From Oceanicola sp. 22II-s10i (GTDB taxonomy: Bacteria; Pseudomonadota; Alphaproteobacteria; Rhodobacterales; Rhodobacteraceae), in contig NZ_AQQU01000002.1 of NCBI RefSeq assembly GCF_002210105.1, positions 186,001 through 250,000 of the forward strand: DNA of 64,000 nt. The letters are read 5' to 3'. The translations under genes were made by a program, and so were the position numbers. This document shows, piece by piece, positions 50,161 through 62,635 of this stretch. The stretch's first letter is position 1. Each line of letters begins with the position of its first letter. The notes under the pieces are model-generated. The model saw only the letters and a program-made list of their open reading frames with translations. It ran no database searches and was not told the origin of the DNA.

Positions 50161-51528
50161 CTAGTGAATGCGCACGCCCTGCCGGGTCAGTTCGGCCTGC
50201 ACCGCGCCGATGTCGACCGCGTCCGCATCCCGCCCCGTCTTGACCGCCAGTGCCGCCGCCACGCCCGCGCCCTGTCCGGCCACGGCGCAGCAGGACATGT
50301 TGCGCGTCGCCGCATGCGCGATCCGGTCTCCGCCGGTGGACCGGCCCGCGACCAGCAGGTTCCTGACCCCCTTCGGCAGCATCGACCGATAGGGGATGTG
50401 CATGTAGCGCCCGGTCGTCGGCAGGATCAGCACGCCGTAGCCGTCGATGAACTCCGGGTAGATGCCGATGCTGTCGTCGAAACGGCCCTCGTGGCGGACA
50501 TCCTCTTCGGTCATGTTGTAGATCGCGTCGATCTTGCGGGTGTCGCGGATGCCGATGGTCATGCCGAAGTTGCGCAGTCGCGCGCCCTCGCAGCCCGGCG
50601 TGAAGGCCTTGAGCGCCTCGATCGCGTGCATCGCCTGCCTGCGGCCCTCGATCTCGAACTTCGTCAGGCTGTCGGGGTCGGTGCCGTCGCAGCCGTCGAG
50701 GTGGATGACGTTCATGTAGGTCAGCTCGCCCGAATCGTGCATCGCGCCCCATGTGCCCGCGATGGTCTTGAGATGGGCGGGGATCAGCCCCTCGTCGCGG
50801 GCGCGGGCGAAGGGCTTGGCGAGGAACGGCGAGAACATCGCGTCCTCTTTGCCGTCCGTCTCGACGTTCCATTCGCCCGAGCCGCGCCAGTCGGCATAGG
50901 TCTGCGGATCCTGCCGGATGCCCTCGAGGAACTTCGCCTTGTCGACGCCCGCCATGTGGAACATGACCGACGCGCCCTGCATGTGCTCGACCGGGGTCTT
51001 GCGGGTTGGCGCGCCCGCCCGGTGCGCGACGTCGGCATCGCCGGTGGCGTCGATCACCACGCGGGCGAGGATCGCCTCGCGCCCGGCTTTGGATTCCACG
51101 ATCACGCCGGTGATCGCGTCACCGTCGAGGATGGGGGCGGCAAACTGGCGGTGCAGCATAGGGTGGATGCCCGCCTCCTCGATCAGCCGGTCGGCGACCA
51201 GCTTGAAGCCCTCGCTGTCCAGCTCGTAGCTGAGCGACTGGCTCTCGGGGACCGCCGCGCCCATTTCCTTCGCGCGATCCTCGAACTCGCGCCCGATGCC
51301 GCCGGCCTCGACTGTCTGCTCGTGGCGATACCATGCGAAGCCCTCGACCCCGACGGCGGTGATATTGCCGCCGAAGCAGCCGAACCGTTCCACCAGCGCG
51401 ACCCGGACACCGGCCCGCGCGGCGGCCAGCGCGGCGGACAGCCCGCCGGGGCCGGAGCCCACGACGAGCACGTCGGTCTCGTGGATCACGGGGGTCTGGC
51501 GGGCGGGTTCGGAGATCGAGCGGGTCAT
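50161..51528 (-). CDS. FAD-dependent oxidoreductase (FAD_oxidored family)
   Basis: A 455-residue flavoprotein. The dinucleotide-binding GxGxxG is at the N-terminus (VLVVGSGPGGLSAALAAARAG), followed by FGCFGGNIT, which is typical of the PF12831 family. VVIDATGDADVAHRAGAP is the ATG motif for FAD, and NLLVAGRSTGGDRIAHAATRNM near the end binds the cofactor again. No signal peptide is seen. The start at 51528 has GAGG upstream. Substrate unknown. The gene is convergent with the LuxR gene and its promoter lies in the repeat region to the right. Confidence 0.85.
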   Translation of the reverse strand: MTRSISEPARQTPVIHETDVLVVGSGPGGLSAALAAARAGVRVALVERFGCFGGNITAVGVEGFAWYRHEQTVEAGGIGREFEDRAKEMGAAVPESQSLSYELDSEGFKLVADRLIEEAGIHPMLHRQFAAPILDGDAITGVIVESKAGREAILARVVIDATGDADVAHRAGAPTRKTPVEHMQGASVMFHMAGVDKAKFLEGIRQDPQTYADWRGSGEWNVETDGKEDAMFSPFLAKPFARARDEGLIPAHLKTIAGTWGAMHDSGELTYMNVIHLDGCDGTDPDSLTKFEIEGRRQAMHAIEALKAFTPGCEGARLRNFGMTIGIRDTRKIDAIYNMTEEDVRHEGRFDDSIGIYPEFIDGYGVLILPTTGRYMHIPYRSMLPKGVRNLLVAGRSTGGDRIAHAATRNMSCCAVAGQGAGVAAALAVKTGRDADAVDIGAVQAELTRQGVRIH

Positions 51529-51614
51529 CGTGGCCTCGGCGGTTGCGGTCGCGCGACGCTGCGCCGGGGGTGGGGGTGTCGTCAATCTGTTACGTTCGGG
51601 TCGGGGTGGGCGCG

Positions 51615-52055
51615 CGCGCCCTGGCCGGGCAAGCCTGCCCGTGGGGAGGCGCGCGGAACGACTGAACGGTGTGATTTATGCCGGGCACATACCGCTTCTG
51701 CCACAGGTCTGCGCGCGGGTGACAAAGCGCCTGCCCTCGGGACGGGCAGGCGCTGCGCGGCGGGCTTCGCCCTTGATTCCGCGCGGTCGGGGCAGGGGAC
51801 GCGGCCGGGAAGGGCGACCGGGATAAGGTTGCGGCGTCGGAGAAGGCACGCGGTCGCGCCCTGGCCCTTCACCGCAAGCGCACAGGCCGGGCAAGCGTGC
51901 CCGTGGGTGGGCGCAGCCGCCGATGGAACGGCGCGCTTGATCCCGGCCACATACATCTTCTGCCCAAGGTCAGGGCGCGGGTGACACAGCGCCTACCCGC
52001 CGGGACGGGCAGGCGCTCGGCGCGGCGGCTTCGCCTTGACTCCGCGCCGGGTCGG
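51615..52055. repeat. two direct copies of a ~170-bp structured non-coding element
   Basis: The 648-base gap between the FAD oxidoreductase and proS contains two imperfect direct copies (51624-51790 and 51886-52055), 262 bases apart. Each has the palindromic segment GCCGGGCAAG, a hairpin GCGCCTGCCC/GGGCAGGCGC (51727-51753; in copy 2 51989-52016, with one G-to-A change), and a second compound hairpin (GCGCGG..CCGCGC with inner GGGC..GCCC in copy 1; CGGCGCGG..CCGCGCCG with inner GGC..GCC in copy 2). Stem changes on both sides are matched, as expected for a structured RNA. The strand is unknown. No convincing gene is present. Confidence 0.7.
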
Positions 52056-52176
52056 ACAAAGCACCCTGCGGGGTCACAGCCACCCGCAGCACGGCCCAAC
52101 CGCGCAACCCCGATTGCCTGCCCGCACCGTTTCGCCTAAACCGCCCGAAACGCCGCAATCCACAGCAAGGTCCGCA

Positions 52177-53514
52177 ATGCGCCTGTCCCGCTACTTCCTG
52201 CCCGTTCTCAAGGAAACCCCCGCCGAGGCGCAGATCGCCAGCCACCGGCTGATGCTGCGCGCCGGGATGATCAAGCAGCAGTCGGCGGGCATCTATTCCT
52301 GGCTGCCGCTCGGCTTCAAGGTTCTCAAGAACATCGAACGGATCGTGCACGAGGAACAGCAGCGCGCGGGCCATATCCCGCTGCTGATGCCGACCCTGCA
52401 ATCCGCCGACCTCTGGCGCGAGAGCGGGCGCTACGATGCCTATGGTCCCGAGATGCTGCGCATCCGCGACCGGCACGACCGCGACATGCTGTTCGGCCCG
52501 ACCAACGAAGAGATGATCACCGACATCTTCCGGTCCTACGTGAAAAGCTACAAGGACCTGCCGCTGACCCTCTACCACATCCAGTGGAAGTTCCGTGACG
52601 AGGTCCGCCCCCGTTTCGGCGTGATGCGCGGCCGCGAATTCCTGATGAAGGACGGCTACAACTTCGACCTGACCAAGGAAGACGCGCTGCACGCCTACAA
52701 CCGGCACCTCGTCAGCTACCTGCGCACCTACGAACGGATGGGCCTGCAGGCGATCCCGATGCGCGCGGACAGCGGCCCGATCGGCGGCGACGACACCCAC
52801 GAGTTCCTCGTGCTGGCCGATACGGGCGAGAGCGAGGTGTTCTACGACAGCGCGGTGACGGACATCAGCCTTGGCAAGCGGGACATCGACTATGACGACG
52901 TCGCCCAGTGCCAGGCGGTGCTGGAGGAATTCACCTCGCTCTACGCCCGCACGGACGAGACGCATGACGAGGCGGTCTTCAACCAGATCCCCGAAGAGCG
53001 CCGCCGCGTGGCGCGGGGGATCGAGGTGGGGCAGATCTTCTACTTCGGCACCAAGTATTCCGAGCCCATGGGCGCGACCGTTCAGGGCCCGGACGGCAAG
53101 CAGACCCCGGTTCACATGGGCTCGCACGGGATCGGCGTGTCGCGTCTGCTGGGCGCGATCATCGAGGCGAGCCACGACGACAAGGGCATCATCTGGCCCG
53201 AGGGCGTCACGCCCTTCCACGTCGGCATCGTGAACCTGCGGCAGGGCGATGCCGAGGTCGATGCGGCCTGTGATGCGCTCTACAAGAGCTTCACCGCGCT
53301 CGGGCTGGAGCCGCTCTATGACGACACCGACGAGCGGGCAGGGGGCAAGTTCGCGTCGATGGACCTGATCGGCCTGCCGTGGCGGATCACCGTGGGCCCG
53401 CGCGGGCTGAAGAACGGGGTGGTCGAACTGACCTCGCGCCGCACCGGCGAGAGCGAGGAGATGACGCCCGAGGATGCCGTCGCCCGGATCGCGGCGATCT
53501 ACGCGGACCACTGA
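52177..53514 (+). CDS. proS: prolyl-tRNA synthetase (short, insertion-free type)
   Basis: A 445-residue class II synthetase. [20 protein letters not shown] is motif 1-related, [22 protein letters not shown] is motif 2, and [15 protein letters not shown] is motif 3. The anticodon-binding domain is C-terminal (about 340-445). The ~180-residue editing insertion of E. coli ProRS is absent, as is usual for alphaproteobacterial ProRS. It charges tRNA-Pro. The start at 52177 is preceded by AAGG. It is downstream of the duplicated structured element. Confidence 0.95.
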
Positions 53515-53614: not shown

Positions 53615-54172
53615 TTATTCGGCCAGACCGATCTGGCGATAGAACGTCTGGTTGTCCCAGAACAGGTATTCCTCGTCCATCACGCCCTCTGCGGTCCAGT
53701 GGCCCACGGTGGCCATGGTCAGCTTGTAGGCCTTGCCGGTCGGTTCGATGACCTGGCCGTTGCCGATGTTCATCGGCTGCGAGAAGGTGCCTTCGATCAC
53801 GCCGACCACGCCGGTCCATTCGCCCTGACCAATGCGGATCGGGTGGGTCTCGATCCGGGTGTCGGGGGCGAAGGAGAAGAAGAACTTCAGATCGTCGATA
53901 TGCGTGTCCAGCCCTTCGCTGACGCGGCCGTCGGGCCAGTGGACCTTGATGTCGTCGGCATGGCTCTCGTGCAGGCGGTCCCATTGCTGGCCGGTGAAGA
54001 CCTCGAAGTCGAGCGTGTCGAAGGTGTCGAGGTTCCTGGCGATGCGCGCGTCCTCGGCCTGCCGGGTGGCGAGTTCCGAGAGGGCGGCGGTCACGGCGGC
54101 GTTGTCCTGCGCCATGAGCGGGGTGGACATCACGGCGGCGAGGGCCGTGGCGAGCAGGGTGGTGCGGGTCAT
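53615..54172 (-). CDS. secreted SnoaL-like (NTF2-fold) protein
   Basis: A 185-residue precursor with a signal peptide (TTLLATALAAVMSTPLMAQ, cleavage near residue 22). The mature domain has the cone-shaped NTF2/SnoaL pattern: LHESHADDIKVHWPDGRVSEG, HPIRIGQGEWTGVVGVIEGTF, GVMDEEYLFWDN. SnoaL-like proteins act as polyketide cyclases or ester cyclases or simply bind small molecules. AAGGAG lies eight bases upstream. The gene is in the same direction as, and 120 bases after, the LysR gene, and shares an upstream motif with the divergent detoxification operon. Confidence 0.8.
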   Translation of the reverse strand: MTRTTLLATALAAVMSTPLMAQDNAAVTAALSELATRQAEDARIARNLDTFDTLDFEVFTGQQWDRLHESHADDIKVHWPDGRVSEGLDTHIDDLKFFFSFAPDTRIETHPIRIGQGEWTGVVGVIEGTFSQPMNIGNGQVIEPTGKAYKLTMATVGHWTAEGVMDEEYLFWDNQTFYRQIGLAE

Positions 54173-54229
54173 TGCGGTGTCTCCTTCTGATCCCTCAGCG
54201 CGGGGATGCGCTGTGATGGGCTCAAGCTA

Positions 54230-54242
54230 GGAGGGATTTATT
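54230..54242 (-). promoter_or_regulatory. AATAAATCCCTCC motif before the SnoaL-like gene
   Basis: On the minus strand, AATAAATCCCTCC lies 58 bases before the SnoaL-like start. It is almost identical to AATAAATCCTCC (55246-55257), which begins the inverted repeat in the LysR/operon intergenic region. The shared word suggests control by the same LysR protein. Confidence 0.4.
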
Positions 54243-54292
54243 TTCTGCGAAATGTTGGTTTTATGGAGTGAATTTCGTCAAAATGTTCTTAA

Positions 54293-55195
54293 TCACTGAT
54301 CCAGAACGCAGGTCGCCCGGATGTCCGCCAAAGCGAAGTCGATTAGCGTGCGGATCTTGCGCGGGACCGACCGCCCTTCGAGATAGACGGCGCTGACCGG
54401 TCCGGTCTCGCTTTCGTAATCGGGCAGGACGGGCACCAGTTCGCCGCTGTCGAGCCGCTCGCCGATCGCGAAGCGCGGCGCGTAGGCGATGCCGAGGCCG
54501 GCCGAGGCCAGTTCAAGCGCCGCGCGGGCGGAGTTCACGCGGAACCGGCCGTCGACCGTCACGGCGTGTTCCGTGTCGCCCTGACGAAAGGTCCAGCGCC
54601 GGGGGACGCGCCGGTTGGTGTCGACGATGCAGGCGTGTCCGGTCAGGTCCTGCGGCGTCGCCGGGCCGCCATGCGCCGCGATATAGGCCGGGCTGGCGAC
54701 GGCGACCGAGGCGAACCGCCCCAGCCTGCGGGACTTGAGCGACAGCATCTCAGACTGGCCCAGCCGGAAGGCGAGATCGATGCCGTCGCGCGCGAGGTCG
54801 ACATAACTGTCGGACAGGCGCAGGTCGATCTTGAGGCCGGGATGCGCGGCGGCGAACCGGCCCAGCATTCCGGCGAGGTAGAGTTCGCCGAAGGTGATCG
54901 AGGCCGAAACCCGGATCACGCCCGACAGTTCGCGTTCCTCGGCGGCGACGCCGCTCAGCAGGTCGTCGAGGTCGTCCAGCAGGGCGGGGGCGCGGGCCAG
55001 CAGGTCTTCGCCCGCCGGGGTCAGGCCGACGCGGCGGGTGGTGCGCTGGAACAGGCGGACACCCAGCCGGGCTTCGAGTTCGGCGACGTATTTCGACGTC
55101 AGCCGGTTCGACATGCCCAGCTGATCGGCGGCGGCGGTGAAGGAGCCTGTCTGTGCCGTGGCCACGAAAGCCCTGAGTTCGTCGACGATGTCCAT
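54293..55195 (-). CDS. LysR family regulator of the detoxification operon
   Basis: A 300-residue LysR-type regulator: winged HTH (about 2-60; GSFTAAADQLGMSNRLTSKYVAELE) and a periplasmic-binding-like effector domain (VIRVSASITFGELYLAG, IDLAFRLGQ, GLGIAYAPRFAIGE). It belongs to the large CrgA/DsdC-like group. It is divergent from the gene at 55338 across 142 bases with a symmetrical AT-rich repeat, so it very probably controls that five-gene operon and itself. The inducer may be a quinone or an aromatic compound, by inference from the target genes. Confidence 0.87.
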   Translation of the reverse strand: MDIVDELRAFVATAQTGSFTAAADQLGMSNRLTSKYVAELEARLGVRLFQRTTRRVGLTPAGEDLLARAPALLDDLDDLLSGVAAEERELSGVIRVSASITFGELYLAGMLGRFAAAHPGLKIDLRLSDSYVDLARDGIDLAFRLGQSEMLSLKSRRLGRFASVAVASPAYIAAHGGPATPQDLTGHACIVDTNRRVPRRWTFRQGDTEHAVTVDGRFRVNSARAALELASAGLGIAYAPRFAIGERLDSGELVPVLPDYESETGPVSAVYLEGRSVPRKIRTLIDFALADIRATCVLDQ

Positions 55196-55246
55196 GCGGG
55201 TGTCCGTGCCTGCGTCAATTGAGAACGTATCGGAGATAGTGACTGA

Positions 55247-55263
55247 ATAAATCCTCCATTTAT
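55247..55263. promoter_or_regulatory. candidate LysR operator ATAAAT-N5-ATTTAT
   Basis: A 17-bp perfect inverted repeat, ATAAAT-CCTCC-ATTTAT, is placed 52 bases from the LysR start and 75 bases from the divergent reductase gene. LysR proteins bind inverted repeats of about this size and A/T-rich arms. It is the most AT-rich point of this intergenic region. Confidence 0.65.
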
Positions 55264-55337
55264 GGCGGTAATGGCAAGCCCTAGATTGGCTCCAGACAAC
55301 ACAACGGCCGCCACGTTGCGGCAGAACTGGAAAAGCC

Positions 55338-55913
55338 ATGAAACTCACCATCATCGGAAACGGAAACATCGGATCCGGCCTTGCCGGTGCCCTCGCCGGG
55401 GCCGGCCACAATGTCACGACGGTCGATCAGGGCGACGACATCGCCGCCGCCGTCGCAGGCGCAGAGGTCGTGATCCTCGCCACCCCCTATGGCGCCGCGG
55501 CGGACATCGCCGGGCTGGCCGATTTCGCGGGCAAGACCGTCGTGGACGTGTCGAACCCGATCACCGCCGATTTCTCGGGCCTGCTGGTCGGCCACGACAC
55601 CTCGGCCGCCGAAAGCATCGCAGCGCTGCTGCCGGGCGCGACGGTGGTCAAGGCCTTCAACACGGTCTTCGCCCAGCACTACGCCTCGGGCCTCAAGGTC
55701 GCGGGGACGCCGATCCAGACCTATGTCGCCGCAGACGACGACGCGGCGCGGGACACGGTGATGGCGCTGGCCAAGGACATCGGCCTCGCCCCCGTCAGCG
55801 CCGGGCCGCTGAAGAACGCCCGTTACCTCGAACCGCTCGGCTTCATGAACATCCAGTTCGGCTACGTGCTGGGCATGGGCCCGACCGTCGCACCGCAATG
55901 GCTTGCCGCCTGA
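55338..55913 (+). CDS. NADP-binding reductase (F420-reductase-like)
   Basis: A 191-residue Rossmann protein. MKLTIIGNGNIGSGLAGALAGAGH is the dinucleotide-binding GxGxxG. The later segments VVDVSNPI, VVKAFNTVFAQ and GPLKNARYLEPLGFMNIQFGY match NADPH:F420 reductase-like proteins, which in bacteria lacking F420 use other acceptors (often quinone or flavin). It is cytoplasmic. First gene of a probable five-gene operon with close spacing, divergent from the LysR gene. Confidence 0.85.
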   Translation: MKLTIIGNGNIGSGLAGALAGAGHNVTTVDQGDDIAAAVAGAEVVILATPYGAAADIAGLADFAGKTVVDVSNPITADFSGLLVGHDTSAAESIAALLPGATVVKAFNTVFAQHYASGLKVAGTPIQTYVAADDDAARDTVMALAKDIGLAPVSAGPLKNARYLEPLGFMNIQFGYVLGMGPTVAPQWLAA

Positions 55914-55934
55914 CATCCTGAAAGGACCTGACCG

Positions 55935-56354
55935 ATGAACACCACCAGCACCGACTTCGCCGCCTTCCTGCTCCGCGTCAGCACGGGCATCCTGTTCCTC
56001 GCGCACGGGCTGATGAAGGTCATGGTCTTCACCGTCCCCGGCACCGTCGGCTTTTTCGAAAGCCTCGGCCTGCCGGGTGTGCTGGCCTACCTCGTGATCC
56101 TGGCCGAGATCGGCGGCGGTCTGCTGCTGATCCTCGGGGTCGCGACCCGGCTGGTGGCGATCGCGCTGATCCCCGTCCTGCTGGGCGCCACATGGGCGCA
56201 TGGCGGCAACGGCTGGAGCTTCTCGGGCGCGGGCGGTGGCTGGGAATACCCGGTGTTCTGGACCGTCGCGCAGGTTTCTGTCGCGCTTCTGGGTGCAGGG
56301 GCCTTTGCCCTGCGCATTCCGGTGGTGCAGAACACCCTTGGCAAGTTCGCGTAA
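55935..56354 (+). CDS. DoxX family membrane protein
   Basis: A 139-residue protein with four predicted membrane helices. LLRVSTGILFLAHGLMKVMVF and LVILAEIGGGLLLILGVATRLVAIALIP are typical of DoxX/CatD proteins. Homologues include CatD of Bacillus subtilis, encoded with a catechol dioxygenase, and subunits of thiosulfate:quinone oxidoreductase; a redox role at the membrane is likely. It follows the reductase gene by 21 bases (AAAGGACCTGACCG ribosome site). Confidence 0.88.
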   Translation: MNTTSTDFAAFLLRVSTGILFLAHGLMKVMVFTVPGTVGFFESLGLPGVLAYLVILAEIGGGLLLILGVATRLVAIALIPVLLGATWAHGGNGWSFSGAGGGWEYPVFWTVAQVSVALLGAGAFALRIPVVQNTLGKFA

Positions 56355-56402
56355 CCCTCCGGGCCGCGCCTGACGGCGCGGCCCCCTTCAAGGACAACGG
56401 AC

Positions 56403-57227
56403 ATGAGTATCGCACACGACCTGCAGAGCCTGCGTGCCCGGCTGGCGCCCTCCGACAGGATGCCGCTGGTCTTTCTCGGGCATGGCAGCCCGATGAACGC
56501 CATCGAGGACACCGCCTTCAGCCGCGCGTGGTCCGATCTTGGCAAATCCCTGCCGCGGCCCAAGGCGATCCTCGTCGTCTCGGCCCACTGGATGACGCGG
56601 GGCACGACGCTGGTCGATGTCTCGGCCATGCCGAAGACGATCCACGATTTCTACGGCTTCCCGCAGGAGCTTTACGACCAGACCTATCCGGCGCATGGCG
56701 ATCCCGACCTCGCGCGGACGGTGGCAACCCTGCTGGCCAGCCACCATTCCGACGTGGACGACACCTGGGGTCTCGACCACGGGGCGTGGACGGTGCTCAA
56801 GTTCCTCTACCCCGAGGCCGACGTGCCGGTGTTCCAGATCTCGATCGACATGGGCCGCGACCTCGCGCACCAGCTTGAGATCGGGCGCACTTTGTCCGAA
56901 CTGCGCGACCGCGGGGTGCTGATCCTCGGCTCGGGTAACGTCGTGCACAACCTGCGCGCCATGCGGCCCGGCGGGCGGCCCCAAGACTTCGCGCTGGAGT
57001 TCGACCGGCTGTTCACCGACCGGCTTGAGGCGCGTGATCTCGCGGCGCTGGCGGACCGGCCCAAGCTGGGATCGCTGCTGCAGATGGCGCATCCGTCGGT
57101 CGATCACTACATGCCCGCGCTGACCGTGGCTGGCGCGTCTGACGCCCGTGACGAGCTGACCTTCATGACCGACGCCATCGACCTCGGGTCGGTGTCCATG
57201 CGGTCCTACGTGTTCCACGCGGCCTGA
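56403..57227 (+). CDS. ygiD: DODA-type extradiol aromatic ring-opening dioxygenase (YgiD)
   Basis: A 274-residue class III extradiol dioxygenase. FLGHGSPMNAI, SAHWMTRG, HDFYGFP and YPAHGD provide the histidine ligands and HGAWTVLKFLYPEADVPVFQISID the family core; GSGNVVHNLR follows. E. coli YgiD oxidatively cleaves L-DOPA and related catechols. The protein is cytoplasmic. Next to a quinone reductase and a DoxX protein it suggests removal of catechols. It is 12 bases before the glutathionyl-hydroquinone reductase gene. Confidence 0.9.
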   Translation: MSIAHDLQSLRARLAPSDRMPLVFLGHGSPMNAIEDTAFSRAWSDLGKSLPRPKAILVVSAHWMTRGTTLVDVSAMPKTIHDFYGFPQELYDQTYPAHGDPDLARTVATLLASHHSDVDDTWGLDHGAWTVLKFLYPEADVPVFQISIDMGRDLAHQLEIGRTLSELRDRGVLILGSGNVVHNLRAMRPGGRPQDFALEFDRLFTDRLEARDLAALADRPKLGSLLQMAHPSVDHYMPALTVAGASDARDELTFMTDAIDLGSVSMRSYVFHAA

Positions 57228-57239
57228 GGAGGGACGACG

Positions 57240-58205
57240 ATGCTGGTCGACGGTAAGTGGTCCAGGAACTGGGACCCGGTGCAGAAGGCGGACGAGAAGG
57301 GGCGCTTCGTCCGCCAGGTCTCGACCTTCCGCAACTGGGTGACGCCCGACGGCGCGCCCGGCCCGACGGGCGAGGGCGGGTTCAAGGCCGAGGCCGGGCG
57401 CTACCGGCTCTACGTCGCCTTCATCTGCCCCTGGGCCTCGCGCACGCTGATCGCGCGCAGCCTCAAGGGGCTGACGGAGGTGATTCCGGTGACGGTCGTG
57501 AACCCGGTTCTGGATGACGAGGGCTGGTCCTTCGGCGGCTATCCGGGCGCGGACGAGGATCCGCTGTTCGGGGTGCGGCATATCCACGAGCTCTACACGC
57601 GGGCCGATCCGCATGTGTCGGGCCGGGCCACGGTTCCGGTGCTCTGGGACGAAAAGACCGGGACGATCGTGAACAACGAAAGCGCCGACATCCTGCGGAT
57701 GCTCGATACGGCGTTCGAGGGGATCGTGCCGTCGGACCTGCGGCTCTATCCCGCCGACCTGGCCGCGGAGATCGACGCGCTGAACCCGCGCATCTACGAC
57801 CTGCTGAACAACGGCGTCTACAAGGCCGGGTTCGCCTCGACGCAGGAGGCCTATGACGAGGCCAACGCGGGCGTCTTCGCGATGCTGGACGAGCTTGAGG
57901 CGATGCTGACCGGCGATTTCCTGTTCGGCGACCGGCTGACCGAGACCGACATCCGCACCTTCGTCACCCTGATCCGCTTCGACGCGGCCTATCACGGGCT
58001 GTTCAAGACCAACCGCCGCCAGATCGCGGACTATCCCCGGCTGCAGGCGTATATGGAGCGGATCTATCGCCTGCCGGGCGTGGCCGGGACCGTGAACATG
58101 GATCACATCACGCGCGGCTACTATTCGATCAAGGCGCTGAACCCCAAGCGCATCCGGCCCGAGGGGCCGGGCCATATCCTGAAGCTGCTGGAGACCGCCG
58201 CATGA
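57240..58205 (+). CDS. yqjG: glutathionyl-hydroquinone reductase (YqjG/ECM4 type)
   Basis: A 321-residue omega/Xi-class glutathione transferase. The catalytic cysteine is in FICPWASR (CPWA motif). The C-terminal helical GST domain ends with ITRGYYSIKALNPKRIRPEGP. Enzymes of this class reduce glutathionyl-hydroquinones to free hydroquinones and are part of quinone detoxification and aromatic degradation. The preceding AGGAGGGACGACG is a strong ribosome site. The stop overlaps the next gene (ATGA). Confidence 0.92.
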   Translation: MLVDGKWSRNWDPVQKADEKGRFVRQVSTFRNWVTPDGAPGPTGEGGFKAEAGRYRLYVAFICPWASRTLIARSLKGLTEVIPVTVVNPVLDDEGWSFGGYPGADEDPLFGVRHIHELYTRADPHVSGRATVPVLWDEKTGTIVNNESADILRMLDTAFEGIVPSDLRLYPADLAAEIDALNPRIYDLLNNGVYKAGFASTQEAYDEANAGVFAMLDELEAMLTGDFLFGDRLTETDIRTFVTLIRFDAAYHGLFKTNRRQIADYPRLQAYMERIYRLPGVAGTVNMDHITRGYYSIKALNPKRIRPEGPGHILKLLETAA

Positions 58206-59119
58206 ACCGCAGACACGAGGCCGCCGCGCAGGACGGGGCGTGGGGCAGGCTGATACACCGCCGCACGTTGCTGAAGGGGGCGGGTGCCATGGCGCTGGCC
58301 ACGGGCCTGCCGCGTGCCGCCGCTGCCGCCAACGCGCTGCCGATGTCCGCGCCGATCCACATCGGGACGGTGGGGCTCAAGGTGCGGGACGCGGAACGGG
58401 TGTCGCGCTGGTACCAGACCGCCGTCGGCCTGCGCGAACTGTCGCGCGACGGCGCGGTAATCCGGCTGGGCGCGGGGGACGTGCCCCTGCTGACGCTGAC
58501 CCAGCAGGAGGGGCTGCTGCTGGCCTCGCGTGGCGAGGCGGGGCTGTTCCACACGGCCTTCCTGCTGCCGTCGCGGCAGGACCTCGCGCGGTGGATCGAC
58601 ATGGCCATCGACGAGGAGGTGCCGGTGGACGGCGTCGCGGACCACCTGGTGAGCGAGGCGATCTACCTGACCGATCCCGAGGGCAACGGCGTGGAAATCT
58701 ACGCCGACACCCCGCAGGAGACGTGGCAATGGCGCGGCGGGCAGGTCGAGATGGCGACCGATCCGCTGGACGTGGAGGGTATCCTCGGCACGCTCGGCCC
58801 CATCCGGCTGCCGTGGACCGGCGCACCTGCGGGCACGGTCGTCGGGCATGTGCACCTGAAGGTGGGCGAGGCCGAGCGCGCGGCGCGGTGGTGGGTGGAC
58901 ACGCTGGGGTTCGATCCCGTCCGGTCGCGTGGGCAGGCGGTGTTCCTGTCCACCGGCGGCTACCATCACCACATCGCCGTCAACGAATGGATGAGCGCGG
59001 GGGCCGGGCGGCGGTCCGAGGGGGCGACGGGGCTCGACTTCGTCGAACTGCGCCGAAGCGGCGGCGGTGCGCCGGGGCGGTGGACCGACGACTGGGGCAC
59101 CGAGATCCGGATAGTCTGA
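58202..59119 (+). CDS. two-domain VOC family protein (CatE-like catechol 2,3-dioxygenase family)
   Basis: A 305-residue protein with a basic N-terminal region (LIHRRTLLKGAGAMALATGLP, a twin-Arg-free RR-L pattern that could be a Tat/Sec signal) and two VOC modules (about 40-165 and 200-300). The first begins IHIGTVGLKVRDAERVSRWY; the second carries GHVHLKVGEAERAARWW and YHHHIAVNEW. Metal ligands (H, H, E) are plausible as in CatE. It likely opens or isomerises an aromatic or quinone product. ATGA overlap with the preceding gene shows coupling. The N-terminal extension is unusual for CatE. Confidence 0.82.
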   Translation: MNRRHEAAAQDGAWGRLIHRRTLLKGAGAMALATGLPRAAAAANALPMSAPIHIGTVGLKVRDAERVSRWYQTAVGLRELSRDGAVIRLGAGDVPLLTLTQQEGLLLASRGEAGLFHTAFLLPSRQDLARWIDMAIDEEVPVDGVADHLVSEAIYLTDPEGNGVEIYADTPQETWQWRGGQVEMATDPLDVEGILGTLGPIRLPWTGAPAGTVVGHVHLKVGEAERAARWWVDTLGFDPVRSRGQAVFLSTGGYHHHIAVNEWMSAGAGRRSEGATGLDFVELRRSGGGAPGRWTDDWGTEIRIV

Positions 59120-59164: not shown

Positions 59165-60556
59165 CTAGCCCGCGAAGACCCTCGGCAGCCATGTGACGAT
59201 GCCGGGGAAGGCGAAGAGCAGGGCGATCGCCACGAGCTGCAGCATCACGAAGGGGATGATCCCCTTGTAGATCGCCGAGGTCGGCATGTCGTCCGGGGCC
59301 ACCCCGCGCAGGTAGAACAGCGCGAAGCCGAAGGGTGGCGTCAGGAACGACGTCTGCAGGTTCACCCCCACGATCACGCCCAGCCAGACCGGGTCGATAT
59401 CCAGCGCCAGCAGAACCGGCGCGGTGATCGGGATCACGATGAAGATGATCTCGAACGTGTCGAGGATGAAGCCGAGGAAGAACATGATCAGCATCACGAC
59501 GGCGACGGCGGCCAGACGCCCGCCGGGCAGGCTGGACAGGAATTCGTGCACGAGGTTGTCGCCGCCCATCATCCGGAAGACGACGGAAAAGACCGAGGCG
59601 CCCAGCAGGATGACGAAGACCATGCTGGTGATGGTCGCGGTCGAGATGACGGTGGATTTCAGCACCTCGAAGCTGAGCCGCAGCCGCAGGGCTGCGAGGA
59701 TCATCGCACCGACCGCGCCGACGGAGGCCGCCTCGGTCGGGGTGGCGATGCCGCCGAGGATCGAGCCGAGCACGGCGAGGATCAGCAGCAGCGGCGGGAC
59801 GAGGGCGACCAGCACCTCGCGCCACAGCGTCTTGCGGTCCTCGGGGGCCACGGGGGTGGCGGGGCAGGATTGCGGATCGGTGGCCGCCTTGAAGATCACC
59901 CAGCCGAGATAGAGCGCGACCAGCAGCACGCCCGGCAGCAGCGCGCCCGCGAAGAGGTCGCCGACCGAGACGGGGACGGGGGCGAAGTTGCCCTTGGCCA
60001 TCTGGACCTGGCTGTTGATGCCGGACAGCATGTCGCCCATGAAGATCAGCACGGTCGAGGGCGGCACGATCTGGCCCAGCGTCCCGCTGGCGCAGATTAC
60101 GCCTGTGGCCAGCTTGGGATCATAGCCCGCCCGCAGCATCGCGGGCAGCGAGATCAGGCCCATCGTGACGACGGTCGCGCCGACCACGCCGGTCGAGGCC
60201 GCGAGCATCGCGCCGACGAGGATCACCGAGATGCCGAGCCCGCCGCGCAGGTTGCCAAAGAGCTTGCCCATGGTCATCAGCAGCTGTTCGGCGATCTGGC
60301 TGCGTTCCAGCATCACCCCCATGAAGATGAAGAGCGGCACGGCGACCAGCACCTCGTTCGTCATGAAGCCGATGTAGCGGTTCGGAAGCGAGCCGAAGTT
60401 GGAGGGGTCGAACACCCCGAACCACATGCCCGCCGCCCCGAACAGCAGCGACACGCCGGCCAGCGAGAAGGCGACCGGGAAGCCGATCAGCAGGAAGCCG
60501 ATCACGCCGAAGAACATCAGGGCGGACAGAATCTCGCCAAGCAGGACGGGATCCAT
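59165..60556 (-). CDS. dctM: TRAP transporter large permease (DctM)
   Basis: A 463-residue inner-membrane protein with 12 or 13 helices. VPLFIFMGVMLERSQIAEQL, GVICASGTLGQIVPPSTVLIFMG and ASVGAVGAMILAAL are typical DctM/TRAP-large signatures. It forms the Na+-coupled channel with the small subunit. The ATG overlaps the stop of the small permease gene (60556). Likely substrates are small organic acids, judging from the binding protein. Confidence 0.94.
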   Translation of the reverse strand: MDPVLLGEILSALMFFGVIGFLLIGFPVAFSLAGVSLLFGAAGMWFGVFDPSNFGSLPNRYIGFMTNEVLVAVPLFIFMGVMLERSQIAEQLLMTMGKLFGNLRGGLGISVILVGAMLAASTGVVGATVVTMGLISLPAMLRAGYDPKLATGVICASGTLGQIVPPSTVLIFMGDMLSGINSQVQMAKGNFAPVPVSVGDLFAGALLPGVLLVALYLGWVIFKAATDPQSCPATPVAPEDRKTLWREVLVALVPPLLLILAVLGSILGGIATPTEAASVGAVGAMILAALRLRLSFEVLKSTVISTATITSMVFVILLGASVFSVVFRMMGGDNLVHEFLSSLPGGRLAAVAVVMLIMFFLGFILDTFEIIFIVIPITAPVLLALDIDPVWLGVIVGVNLQTSFLTPPFGFALFYLRGVAPDDMPTSAIYKGIIPFVMLQLVAIALLFAFPGIVTWLPRVFAG

Positions 60557-61134
60557 CAGACGGCCTCCTCTGGGGTGCCGACCGGGGTCTTGTCGGGCGA
60601 ATAGCGGATCGGCTCGGGCACCAGATCGGCGCGGCCGGACAGGACAAGGATCGACCGGATGGCCATCGCGATCCCCTGCAGGGCGATCAGGACGGCAAAG
60701 GCGATGATGAAGGTCTTGAGGATGTAGAGCCCCGGCATCCCGCCCACGTTGGCCGACGCCTCGCCATAGCCCCAGGCCCGTTTCACGAAGGGGATGGAAT
60801 AGGTAAAGACGACCCAGCAGAAGGGCAGCAGGAACAGGACCACGCCCAGCAGGTCGGCCATCGCCCGCGTGCGCTGACGCGCCGGGCGGTAAAATATGTC
60901 AACGCGAACGTGATCGTCACGCAGCAGGGCAAAGCCCGCGACCGCCGTGAACATCGCGCCGTTCATCCAGATGTAGAGGTCCTGCATCCAGACGTAGCTG
61001 ATCGAGAAGACGTAGCGCTGGACGACGACGGTGAAGCAGACCAGCACGATGCCGAGGGCGAGCCACGAGAACACCTTGCCGATCACAAGGTTCAGACCGC
61101 AGATCAGGGCGGCCACCCTGGCTAGAACGCGCAT
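60556..61134 (-). CDS. dctQ: TRAP transporter small permease (DctQ)
   Basis: A 192-residue protein with four hydrophobic helices. SYVWMQDLYIWMNGAMFTAVAGF and DDHVRVDIFYRP are the DctQ signatures. It binds the large permease and the substrate-binding protein. It is coupled to dctM by a one-base overlap and lies 150 bases after the binding-protein gene, with a hairpin in between. Confidence 0.93.
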   Translation of the reverse strand: MRVLARVAALICGLNLVIGKVFSWLALGIVLVCFTVVVQRYVFSISYVWMQDLYIWMNGAMFTAVAGFALLRDDHVRVDIFYRPARQRTRAMADLLGVVLFLLPFCWVVFTYSIPFVKRAWGYGEASANVGGMPGLYILKTFIIAFAVLIALQGIAMAIRSILVLSGRADLVPEPIRYSPDKTPVGTPEEAV

Positions 61135-61239
61135 CGCTTCTCCCTTTCCTGCGGCTGTCTCGTGATCCCGCGCTGTCCCGCCGGGCCGCGATGGCCGCGT
61201 CGCGGGGCAGGGGATATCGCAGCCCTATAGAATGCGGAA

Positions 61240-61264
61240 TGGCCCGGACGCAATCGCCGGGCCA
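61240..61264 (-). terminator. intra-operon hairpin between dctP and dctQ
   Basis: On the minus strand TGGCCCGG (61257-61264) pairs with CCGGGCCA (61240-61247) over 8 bp, 20 bases after the binding-protein stop. It lacks a T-run. Such hairpins commonly lower downstream permease expression relative to the abundant binding protein. Confidence 0.65.
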
Positions 61265-61284
61265 CACGCATCGATCTTCGACGA

Positions 61285-62379
61285 TCAGATCGTGAAGAAC
61301 TTCTCGCGGGCCTGGACAAAGGCGCCGTCGGTGTCGCGGGAGCGGGTCCGCACGATGTTGAGCGACGAGATGAAGCTCTCGGCCGTCTTCTTCACCAGCG
61401 GATCGTCCGAATCGCGCAGGCCCGTCATGATTTCCTTGGCGGCTTCTGCACCGGCCTGCAGGATTTCCTCGGGGAACTGCATAACGTTGACGCCGTGATC
61501 GTTGATCAGGGTCTGCAGCGCGCGCGGGTCGTTGGCGTAGAAATCGGACGCGACCTGGTCGTATTCGGCCTGGCAGATGTCCTTGACCAGCGCCTGCAGG
61601 TCGGACGGCAGGGCCTGGTACTTGGCCTTGTCGACGACCAGCTCGGTGGCCAGCCCCGGCTCCACGAAGGAGGGGAAATAGTAATTCTTGGCAACCTGGT
61701 AGAAGCCGAGCGCGAGGTCGTTGTAGGGCCCCACGAATTCGGCCGCGTCGAGCGTGCCGGACTGCAGCGCCTGGAAGATCTCGCCCGCGGCCATGTTGGT
61801 CACGGTGGCGCCCAGTTTCTCCCACACACGGCCGCCCAGCCCGGGGGTGCGGAAGCGCAGGCCCTGCACGTCGGCCACGCCGGTCAATTCGTTGCGGAAC
61901 CAGCCGCCGGCCTGCGTGCCGGTGTCGCCGGACAGGAAGCCCTGCACGCCGAACTGGTCATAGATCTCGTCCCAGATTTCCTGGCCGCCCATGTAGCGGA
62001 CCCATGCGGTCAGCTCGCGCGAGGTCATGCCGAAGGGCACGCCGGTGAAGAACGACAGCGCCTGCGACTTGTTCTGCCAGTAGTAGGCGGCGCCGTGGCT
62101 CATCTCGGCGGTGCCGTCGATCACGGCGTCCAGCGACTGCAGCGGCGGAACCATCTCGCCTGCGGAATAGACCTGAACGGTCAGGCGGCCGCCCGAAGCG
62201 GCGGTGATGCGGTCGGCCAGACGCTGCGCGCCGACGCCGAGGCCGGGGAAGTTCTTGGGCCAGGTGGTGACCATGCGCCAGGTGACATTGCCTTGCGCGA
62301 TCGCGGGTGCGGCCAGCGTGCTGGCGGCTGCACCGGCACCGAGCGTGCCAGCCGTGCGAATGAATGAACGGCGATCCAT
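61285..62379 (-). CDS. dctP: TRAP transporter substrate-binding protein (TakP-like DctP)
   Basis: A 364-residue precursor with a twin-arginine signal (MDRRSFIRTAGTLGAG, RRSFI) cleaved near residue 29. The mature protein shares TakP landmarks: VFSAGE-like VYSAGEMVPPLQSLDAV, GGWFRNELTGVADVQGLRFR, and a FVGPYND segment in place of WVGPYDD. TakP of R. sphaeroides binds alpha-keto acids with Na+, so a keto acid, lactate or similar ligand is likely here. GGAGGATATCT lies upstream. It is first in the operon dctP-dctQ-dctM. Confidence 0.92.
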   Translation of the reverse strand: MDRRSFIRTAGTLGAGAAASTLAAPAIAQGNVTWRMVTTWPKNFPGLGVGAQRLADRITAASGGRLTVQVYSAGEMVPPLQSLDAVIDGTAEMSHGAAYYWQNKSQALSFFTGVPFGMTSRELTAWVRYMGGQEIWDEIYDQFGVQGFLSGDTGTQAGGWFRNELTGVADVQGLRFRTPGLGGRVWEKLGATVTNMAAGEIFQALQSGTLDAAEFVGPYNDLALGFYQVAKNYYFPSFVEPGLATELVVDKAKYQALPSDLQALVKDICQAEYDQVASDFYANDPRALQTLINDHGVNVMQFPEEILQAGAEAAKEIMTGLRDSDDPLVKKTAESFISSLNIVRTRSRDTDGAFVQAREKFFTI

Positions 62380-62404
62380 AGATATCCTCCCCTTGGTGTT
62401 CGTC

Positions 62405-62484
62405 CTGTCGCGACAGTCGAAAGACAGTCGTCCGCAGCGCACGTACTGGGGCGGAAAGCCGAAAGTCCATGCAACATCGTTGCA
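62405..62484. promoter_or_regulatory. palindromes in the dctP leader
   Basis: The perfect 12-bp palindrome CTGTCGCGACAG (62405-62416) and the inverted repeat TGCAAC-ATC-GTTGCA (62470-62484) lie 26 and 91 bases upstream of the dctP start. They are candidate operators. The remaining gap up to 62635 is AT-richer (TTGATCGTGGCAATCAATTTT) and probably holds the promoter; no clear -35/-10 pair is assigned. Confidence 0.5.
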
Positions 62485-62635
62485 AAGGTGAACTGTTGAT
62501 CGTGGCAATCAATTTTTCGCGGGGAGGGGTTGCAATCCTGCCCGCGAAATTTCCTTTCCTACCCGATTTTGGGGTTGCCGCTGGGTCAGCGACTCGGCCC
62601 GCGCAAGCGCGCCGGGCCGCCCTGGTGGCGCGTGC

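Follow-up and report, generated by a model that had tools for sequence, protein, structure and literature searches.

The window, by which we mean the whole 64-kb stretch of DNA analyzed here (G000:C12:186001–250000, from a host genome of 5.1 Mb), carries a LysR gene and a divergent five-gene operon that probably make up a LysR-ruled defense regulon directed at catechols, hydroquinones, and their quinone products; the substrates, the induction, and the enzyme activities proposed below are those suggested by protein family and gene context. The five plus-strand genes lie in a row with gaps of 21, 48, 12, and −4 bases, and the coordinates thus confirm the coupled arrangement that an earlier sequence-only reading had described. 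The bounds given there, 54230–59119, capture this gene set but start 63 bases past the stop codon of the LysR gene, and the SnoaL-like gene at 53615–54172, which shares the operator, was omitted. The features are as follows.

53615–54172, minus strand: SnoaL-like protein P0007 with an N-terminal export signal recognized by eye (Pfam SnoaL 36.7 bits, cut-off 28.4); operator in front
54222–54297, minus strand: putative LysR operator before the SnoaL-like gene (28.1 bits, 76-column model from 29 other promoters)
54293–55195, minus strand: LysR-type regulator (HTH_1 and LysR_substrate, both over cut-off)
55214–55289, plus strand: putative LysR operator at the divergent promoter of the operon (top-scoring site of the window, 44.7 bits)
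55338–55913, plus strand: FNO/STEAP-like NADP-binding reductase (PF03807 F420_oxidored 35.9 bits, cut-off 21.6)
55935–56354, plus strand: DoxX-family membrane protein (PF07681 76.7 bits, cut-off 23.6)
56403–57227, plus strand: DODA, a YgiD-type LigB extradiol dioxygenase (LigB 98.3 bits, cut-off 26.3; NCBIfam NF007914, 4,5-DOPA-extradiol-dioxygenase, 277.5 bits, curated cut-off 233)
57240–58205, plus strand: glutathionyl-hydroquinone reductase (GHR), a YqjG-like GST (GST_N_2 and GST_C_2 over cut-off)
58202–59119, plus strand: two-domain VOC protein P0005 with a Tat-like leader (Glyoxalase/VOC 46.9 bits, cut-off 20.6)

The operator at 54222–54297 shares five bases with the 3′ end of the LysR gene. 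To the left of the set, by eye, are a FAD-dependent oxidoreductase-like frame (50161–51585, minus strand) and a prolyl-tRNA synthetase-like frame (52036–53514, plus strand); to the right, a three-gene TRAP-transporter-like set (59165–62508, minus strand, by eye) faces the operon and is not counted as a member.

The family names proposed earlier are borne out by Pfam and NCBIfam, with the exception of GHR, which is named by no NCBIfam model and takes its name from its similarity to YqjG. This protein is 52% identical to Escherichia coli YqjG over 313 positions, matches the solved YqjG structure 3r3e with E = 6.4e-99, and harbors a CPWA motif at residue 63, and so combines the full-length similarity and the cysteine motif by which YqjG-like GSTs were recognized. 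Residues 15–268 of DODA align with E. coli YgiD (2pw6; E = 1.8e-68). The solved relatives of the NADP-reductase are 2raf, F420:NADP oxidoreductases, and the reductase domains of STEAP proteins; its score of 58.9 against the F420-dependent NADP reductase model TIGR01915 is below the curated cut-off of 149.8.

The stretch between the LysR gene and the first gene of the operon is conserved in an alignment of 30 promoters. Its center in G097 (L179) is the palindrome TTCAACAAA-N8-TTTGTTGAA, the arms of which are poor in the window. We modeled the putative operator with 76 columns from the 29 other promoters, the window excluded, and scanned the 64-kb window, which yielded 44.7 at 55214 (plus strand), 28.1 at 54222 (minus strand), and then −52.1; three base-shuffled windows gave −41.8 at best. 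Leave-one-out scores of the 30 promoters extend from 40.4 to 95.7, so that at 44.7 the window operator is among the weakest. Loci outside the training set that score above 0 are L076, L079, L081, L082, Shewanella L083 and L084, L174, and the SnoaL locus L197, together with re-fetched copies of training loci; scores below 0 were obtained for L163, L183, L184, E. coli L173, and those VOC clusters whose LysR is less similar (L166–L168, L170, L104, L105, L110, and L114). A pattern search for the operator returned eight matches in 7 of 120 genomes, and 25 matches in 21 of 394 family genomes (these 120 included), with no match for the reversed control. Genes of this set adjoin 24 of the 25 matches: 21 mark a promoter of the set next to a LysR ortholog, one lies before a DODA-GHR pair, one before GHR alone, and one before an unlinked SnoaL ortholog; the one in L190 is beside unrelated genes. 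Neither the window nor many of the true promoters are caught by this pattern, so that 21 in 394 is a minimum. A second pattern, derived from the two sites of the window, was run on the genome to which the window belongs and matches only these two within three mismatches. The operators are thus conserved sequence, to which the LysR protein may bind in response to a phenolic inducer, and they support the single operon-like unit under LysR control proposed in the sequence-only reading. Such an operator would let members of the regulon be recognized from genome sequence alone. As to other layouts, in Shewanella salipaludis (L084) a reductase-DoxX-DODA-GHR set is flanked by an operator on each side (5874 and 10086), of which the second adjoins a LysR gene at the far end of the set, and in L213 (G159) a DODA-GHR pair has an operator, across which lie flavin-reductase-like frames (by eye), with no LysR match in the stretch examined.

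The SnoaL-like gene follows the LysR gene in the same orientation, with the second operator before it. This LysR-SnoaL layout recurs in G349 (L211), where the second site before SnoaL scores 39.9 bits; in G097 the SnoaL ortholog (72% identity) is unlinked to the cluster, yet has the operator. We found a SnoaL match in 2 of 120 family genomes (the window's own and G097) and one further ortholog, of 83%, in L211; with so few family genomes matching, SnoaL is an occasional member. More distant relatives are present in 9 of the best 80 reductase loci described below, and an export leader is seen by eye in 8 of 10 SnoaL relatives examined, those of L099 and L105 having none in the stretch examined.

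We surveyed 120 family genomes, the window's own included, for DODA and used 69% identity as the ortholog threshold. A DODA ortholog at or above this value is found in 14 genomes; a DODA copy of G007 that is in pieces, at 60–67%, was left out of the 14. GHR lies within 3 kb of DODA in 10 of the 14 (about 0.03 expected) and a LysR ortholog is beside DODA in 12 (no LysR match is near DODA in G046 and G042), a proximity far above expectation, and the linkage is not a matter of chance. DoxX is in the cluster in 9 of the 14 and the NADP-reductase, an optional member, in 5; VOC accompanies DODA in the window only, although in G070, where the contig stops inside GHR, a VOC gene may lie beyond that point. 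From these counts, LysR and DODA, usually with GHR and DoxX, form the core and the rest varies. Within the genus, a close DODA is found in 5 of 21 other genomes, with the LysR gene beside it in four; neither reductase nor DoxX is detected there in the five at E = 1e-5. The expectation that the five genes would co-occur in relatives therefore holds in part for four of them but not for all five together, a set seen in the window only, and the VOC gene does not belong to the conserved set. Two relatives show incomplete genes. DODA and GHR lie in pieces across several frames in G007 (C44:18041–19528), and the cluster therefore looks broken in that genome; in L178 (G051), a short frame between LysR and DODA looks by eye like the two termini of the NADP-reductase, as though the gene had lost the bulk of its length by deletion.

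A scan of genome contigs with a reductase alignment found at least 562 loci, the best 80 of which, from named genomes, were examined for all seven proteins; among the matches listed, the nearest named reductase relatives are Marivita, Heliomarina, Gemmobacter, Roseovarius, and the like. The comparison of the position occupied by DODA or VOC covers 108 loci, comprising the window, these 80, and 27 others. A LysR match of more than 120 residues is present in 96 of the 108 and reaches at least 55% identity in 32; LysR orthologs in 31 other loci carrying genes of this set are 58–74% identical. Those 32 same-LysR loci contain DODA only (22), VOC only (8), both (1, the window), or neither (1), and seven of the eight VOC loci have the order LysR, reductase, DoxX, VOC, GHR, with no GHR seen in the eighth (L073). 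In the remaining 64 loci, DODA is found in 16, VOC in 11, and both in none. The hypergeometric value for DODA/VOC exclusion among the 32 loci, 7e-6, ignores kinship and the choice of loci and overstates the case, given that loci were entered by reductase, DODA, or VOC and that several VOC loci are closely related. There are also VOC clusters whose LysR is further removed (34–42%), several with DoxX and GHR. Since VOC replaces DODA in relatives, the constant function of this slot is most likely ring opening, and the exchange of one for the other while the regulator stays the same predicts that the two enzymes act on a common type of ring. The VOC of the window itself falls outside the slot-VOC group in a 16-row tree, on a long branch of unsure position.

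Within the genus, an ortholog of the window VOC gene, of 64–69% identity, is present in 5 of 21 other genomes. The leader of the window protein contains HRRTLLKGAGAMALATG and scores 20.2 bits against Pfam TAT_signal, below the cut-off of 22.7; a twin-arginine leader is apparent by eye in all five sister orthologs, and Pfam, run on three of them, lists TAT for one, at 21.6, also below cut-off. By eye, GGAG precedes the ATG at 58202 and nothing comparable precedes 58343, and the base composition of 58202–58342 by codon position resembles that of the coding parts; a start at 58343 was judged unlikely for want of a ribosome site, given the GGAG before 58202 and the leaders kept in relatives. In three of the five sister genomes (L220, L222, and L223), a DoxX-like frame overlaps the VOC start by one base; that of L222, the only one of the three so checked, was confirmed as DoxX by Pfam. 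These sister VOC proteins are 67–68% identical to that of the window and keep the twin-arginine leader, and they differ from it in overlapping a DoxX gene and in having no such operator (−46.3 at best in the five sister stretches). The pair and the DODA cluster are on separate contigs in G124 and G129, and no DODA match is found in G122. On the simplest interpretation, a sister-type VOC gene was joined to the operon in the window, with its new start at the stop codon of GHR.

A close functional parallel is found in E. coli. There, hydroquinone, catechol, and other compounds no longer induce yqjF in a yhaJ mutant, and the LysR-type regulator YhaJ is likewise required for ygiD to be induced by hydroquinone (PMC5031710). 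The YhaJ regulon comprises yqjF, ygiD, yhaK, ybiJ, yhhW, and yceP, and yqjG goes unmentioned in that paper (PMC5031710). In the E. coli RefSeq annotation, yqjF is DoxX, yqjG, on the same strand after a gap of 69 bases, is GHR, and ygiD is 4,5-DOPA dioxygenase extradiol. The two systems thus share a LysR-type regulator, a DoxX target with an adjoining GHR gene, and a YgiD-type dioxygenase. They differ in that the E. coli genes are scattered, whereas those of the window form one operon, in that none of the YhaJ targets listed in the section of PMC5031710 consulted is an FNO-like reductase, SnoaL, or VOC, and in that no pirin is among the window genes named. The window LysR was considered as YhaJ and this was dropped, with 28% identity over 279 positions and an operator unlike; the best curated LysR model for it is YafC, where its 183.9 bits fall short of the cut-off of 470. 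The 76-column model gives −21.7 at best in the E. coli yqjF-yhaK region, the ygiD promoter lying outside the scan. Because the LysR proteins are only 28% identical and that region has no matching operator, the likeness concerns function and does not extend to the descent of the regulator. In Pseudomonas fluorescens In5, LigB, YqjG, DoxX, and pirin genes are raised against Rhizoctonia solani (PMC5557065), a hint that such genes act together.

In the catDE operon of Bacillus subtilis, a DoxX gene, which we take catD to be, is presumably followed directly by that of the VOC dioxygenase CatE, an arrangement matched by the Tat-VOC gene in the three sister genomes; CatE is not known to have a Tat leader. 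Like the window, catDE sets a DoxX protein (CatD, on this assumption) and a catechol 2,3-dioxygenase (CatE) against catechol; unlike it, catDE has no DODA or GHR and is under a MarR/DUF24-type CatR with YodB and Fur, in place of a LysR gene and its operator, and in the window two genes separate DoxX and VOC. The catechol 2,3-dioxygenase encoded by catDE is catechol-induced under CatR, YodB, and Fur, and CatDE protects B. subtilis from siderophore catechols (PMC6212828). The sequence-only reading had compared the window with this MarR-ruled system alone. Its proposal of LysR control is supported by the gene and operator in the window, but its view that the combination is new in kind does not stand beside the need for YhaJ in yqjF and ygiD induction (PMC5031710). 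With YhaJ and catDE as parallels, the working idea is already known; what is new is its form as an operon, the clade of its regulator, the operator, the link to SnoaL, and the Tat-VOC protein. Among the papers that literature searches listed, no title or abstract opening describes this operon, which does not imply its absence from print. The observation is confirmed, the function likely right, and the novelty overstated.

In the mechanism proposed, the LysR protein would occupy two operators, one separating its gene from the operon and one before the SnoaL-like gene, and would activate both the operon and the SnoaL-like gene upon encountering a phenolic inducer. GHR would return glutathione-reacted quinones to hydroquinones, DODA would ring-open ortho-diphenols, and the NADP-reductase may keep quinones or ring-opened products reduced, with DoxX acting, presumably, at the membrane; the SnoaL-like and Tat-VOC proteins would be exported to handle phenols or their products outside the cytoplasm. 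The theme of catechol and hydroquinone detoxification appears well supported by context. A more specific form seems doubtful, namely a two-compartment phenol defense under one LysR switch, in which ring opening and glutathione recycling in the cytoplasm are paired with an exported SnoaL-like protein and a Tat-exported ring-opening VOC, and the FNO/STEAP-like reductase and DoxX pass NADPH electrons to quinones at the membrane. The defense regulon would tie DoxX, the YgiD-type dioxygenase, FNO-like reductases, and exported SnoaL, all poorly understood, to one regulator and one operator, a link that spans many alphaproteobacteria and two Shewanella genomes.

Alternatively, the set could serve to consume a particular catechol, such as a lignin or algal phenol, the ring-opened carbon of which would feed metabolism. 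DODA and VOC come from ring-cleaving superfamilies, and LysR regulators of aromatic catabolism are common; however, no downstream-pathway gene was recognized by eye in the frames adjoining the set, GHR and DoxX fit detoxification, and the parts are freely mixed between relatives, and we consider a catabolic regulon unlikely. The set may also be dedicated to a single metabolite, either a catecholate siderophore or a compound resembling DOPA or a pigment, rather than to a general stress response. The DODA family is named after 4,5-DOPA cleavage, and the guard that CatDE provides against siderophore catechols (PMC6212828) is a precedent, but the window neighbors (the proS-like frame and the TRAP transporter) look unrelated by eye, and this reading strikes us as improbable. 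That the five genes are an accidental juxtaposition without shared control is hardly credible: the exact five-gene set was found once and VOC pairs with another DoxX elsewhere, but the other genes are linked far above chance and share an operator, evidence that disfavors accident for all except the VOC gene alone.

The last domain of the VOC protein is short, and the idea of a decayed copy was abandoned once this short form was found in sister genomes too. A scan of genome contigs with the window VOC gave no match, and its score against the nearest curated model, catechol 2,3-dioxygenase TIGR03211, is 50.7, below the cut-off of 320.2. Type I extradiol dioxygenases of the VOC superfamily bind their metal through a His-His-Glu site. 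The candidate ligands are split in the window protein, with H117 and E165 in the first domain and H216/H218 in the second, and the usual triad is incomplete in either domain alone. Many family genomes encode a shorter VOC protein (e.g., G006:C41), the first half of which resembles the second domain of the window protein and the second half the first, as if the halves were permuted relative to it.
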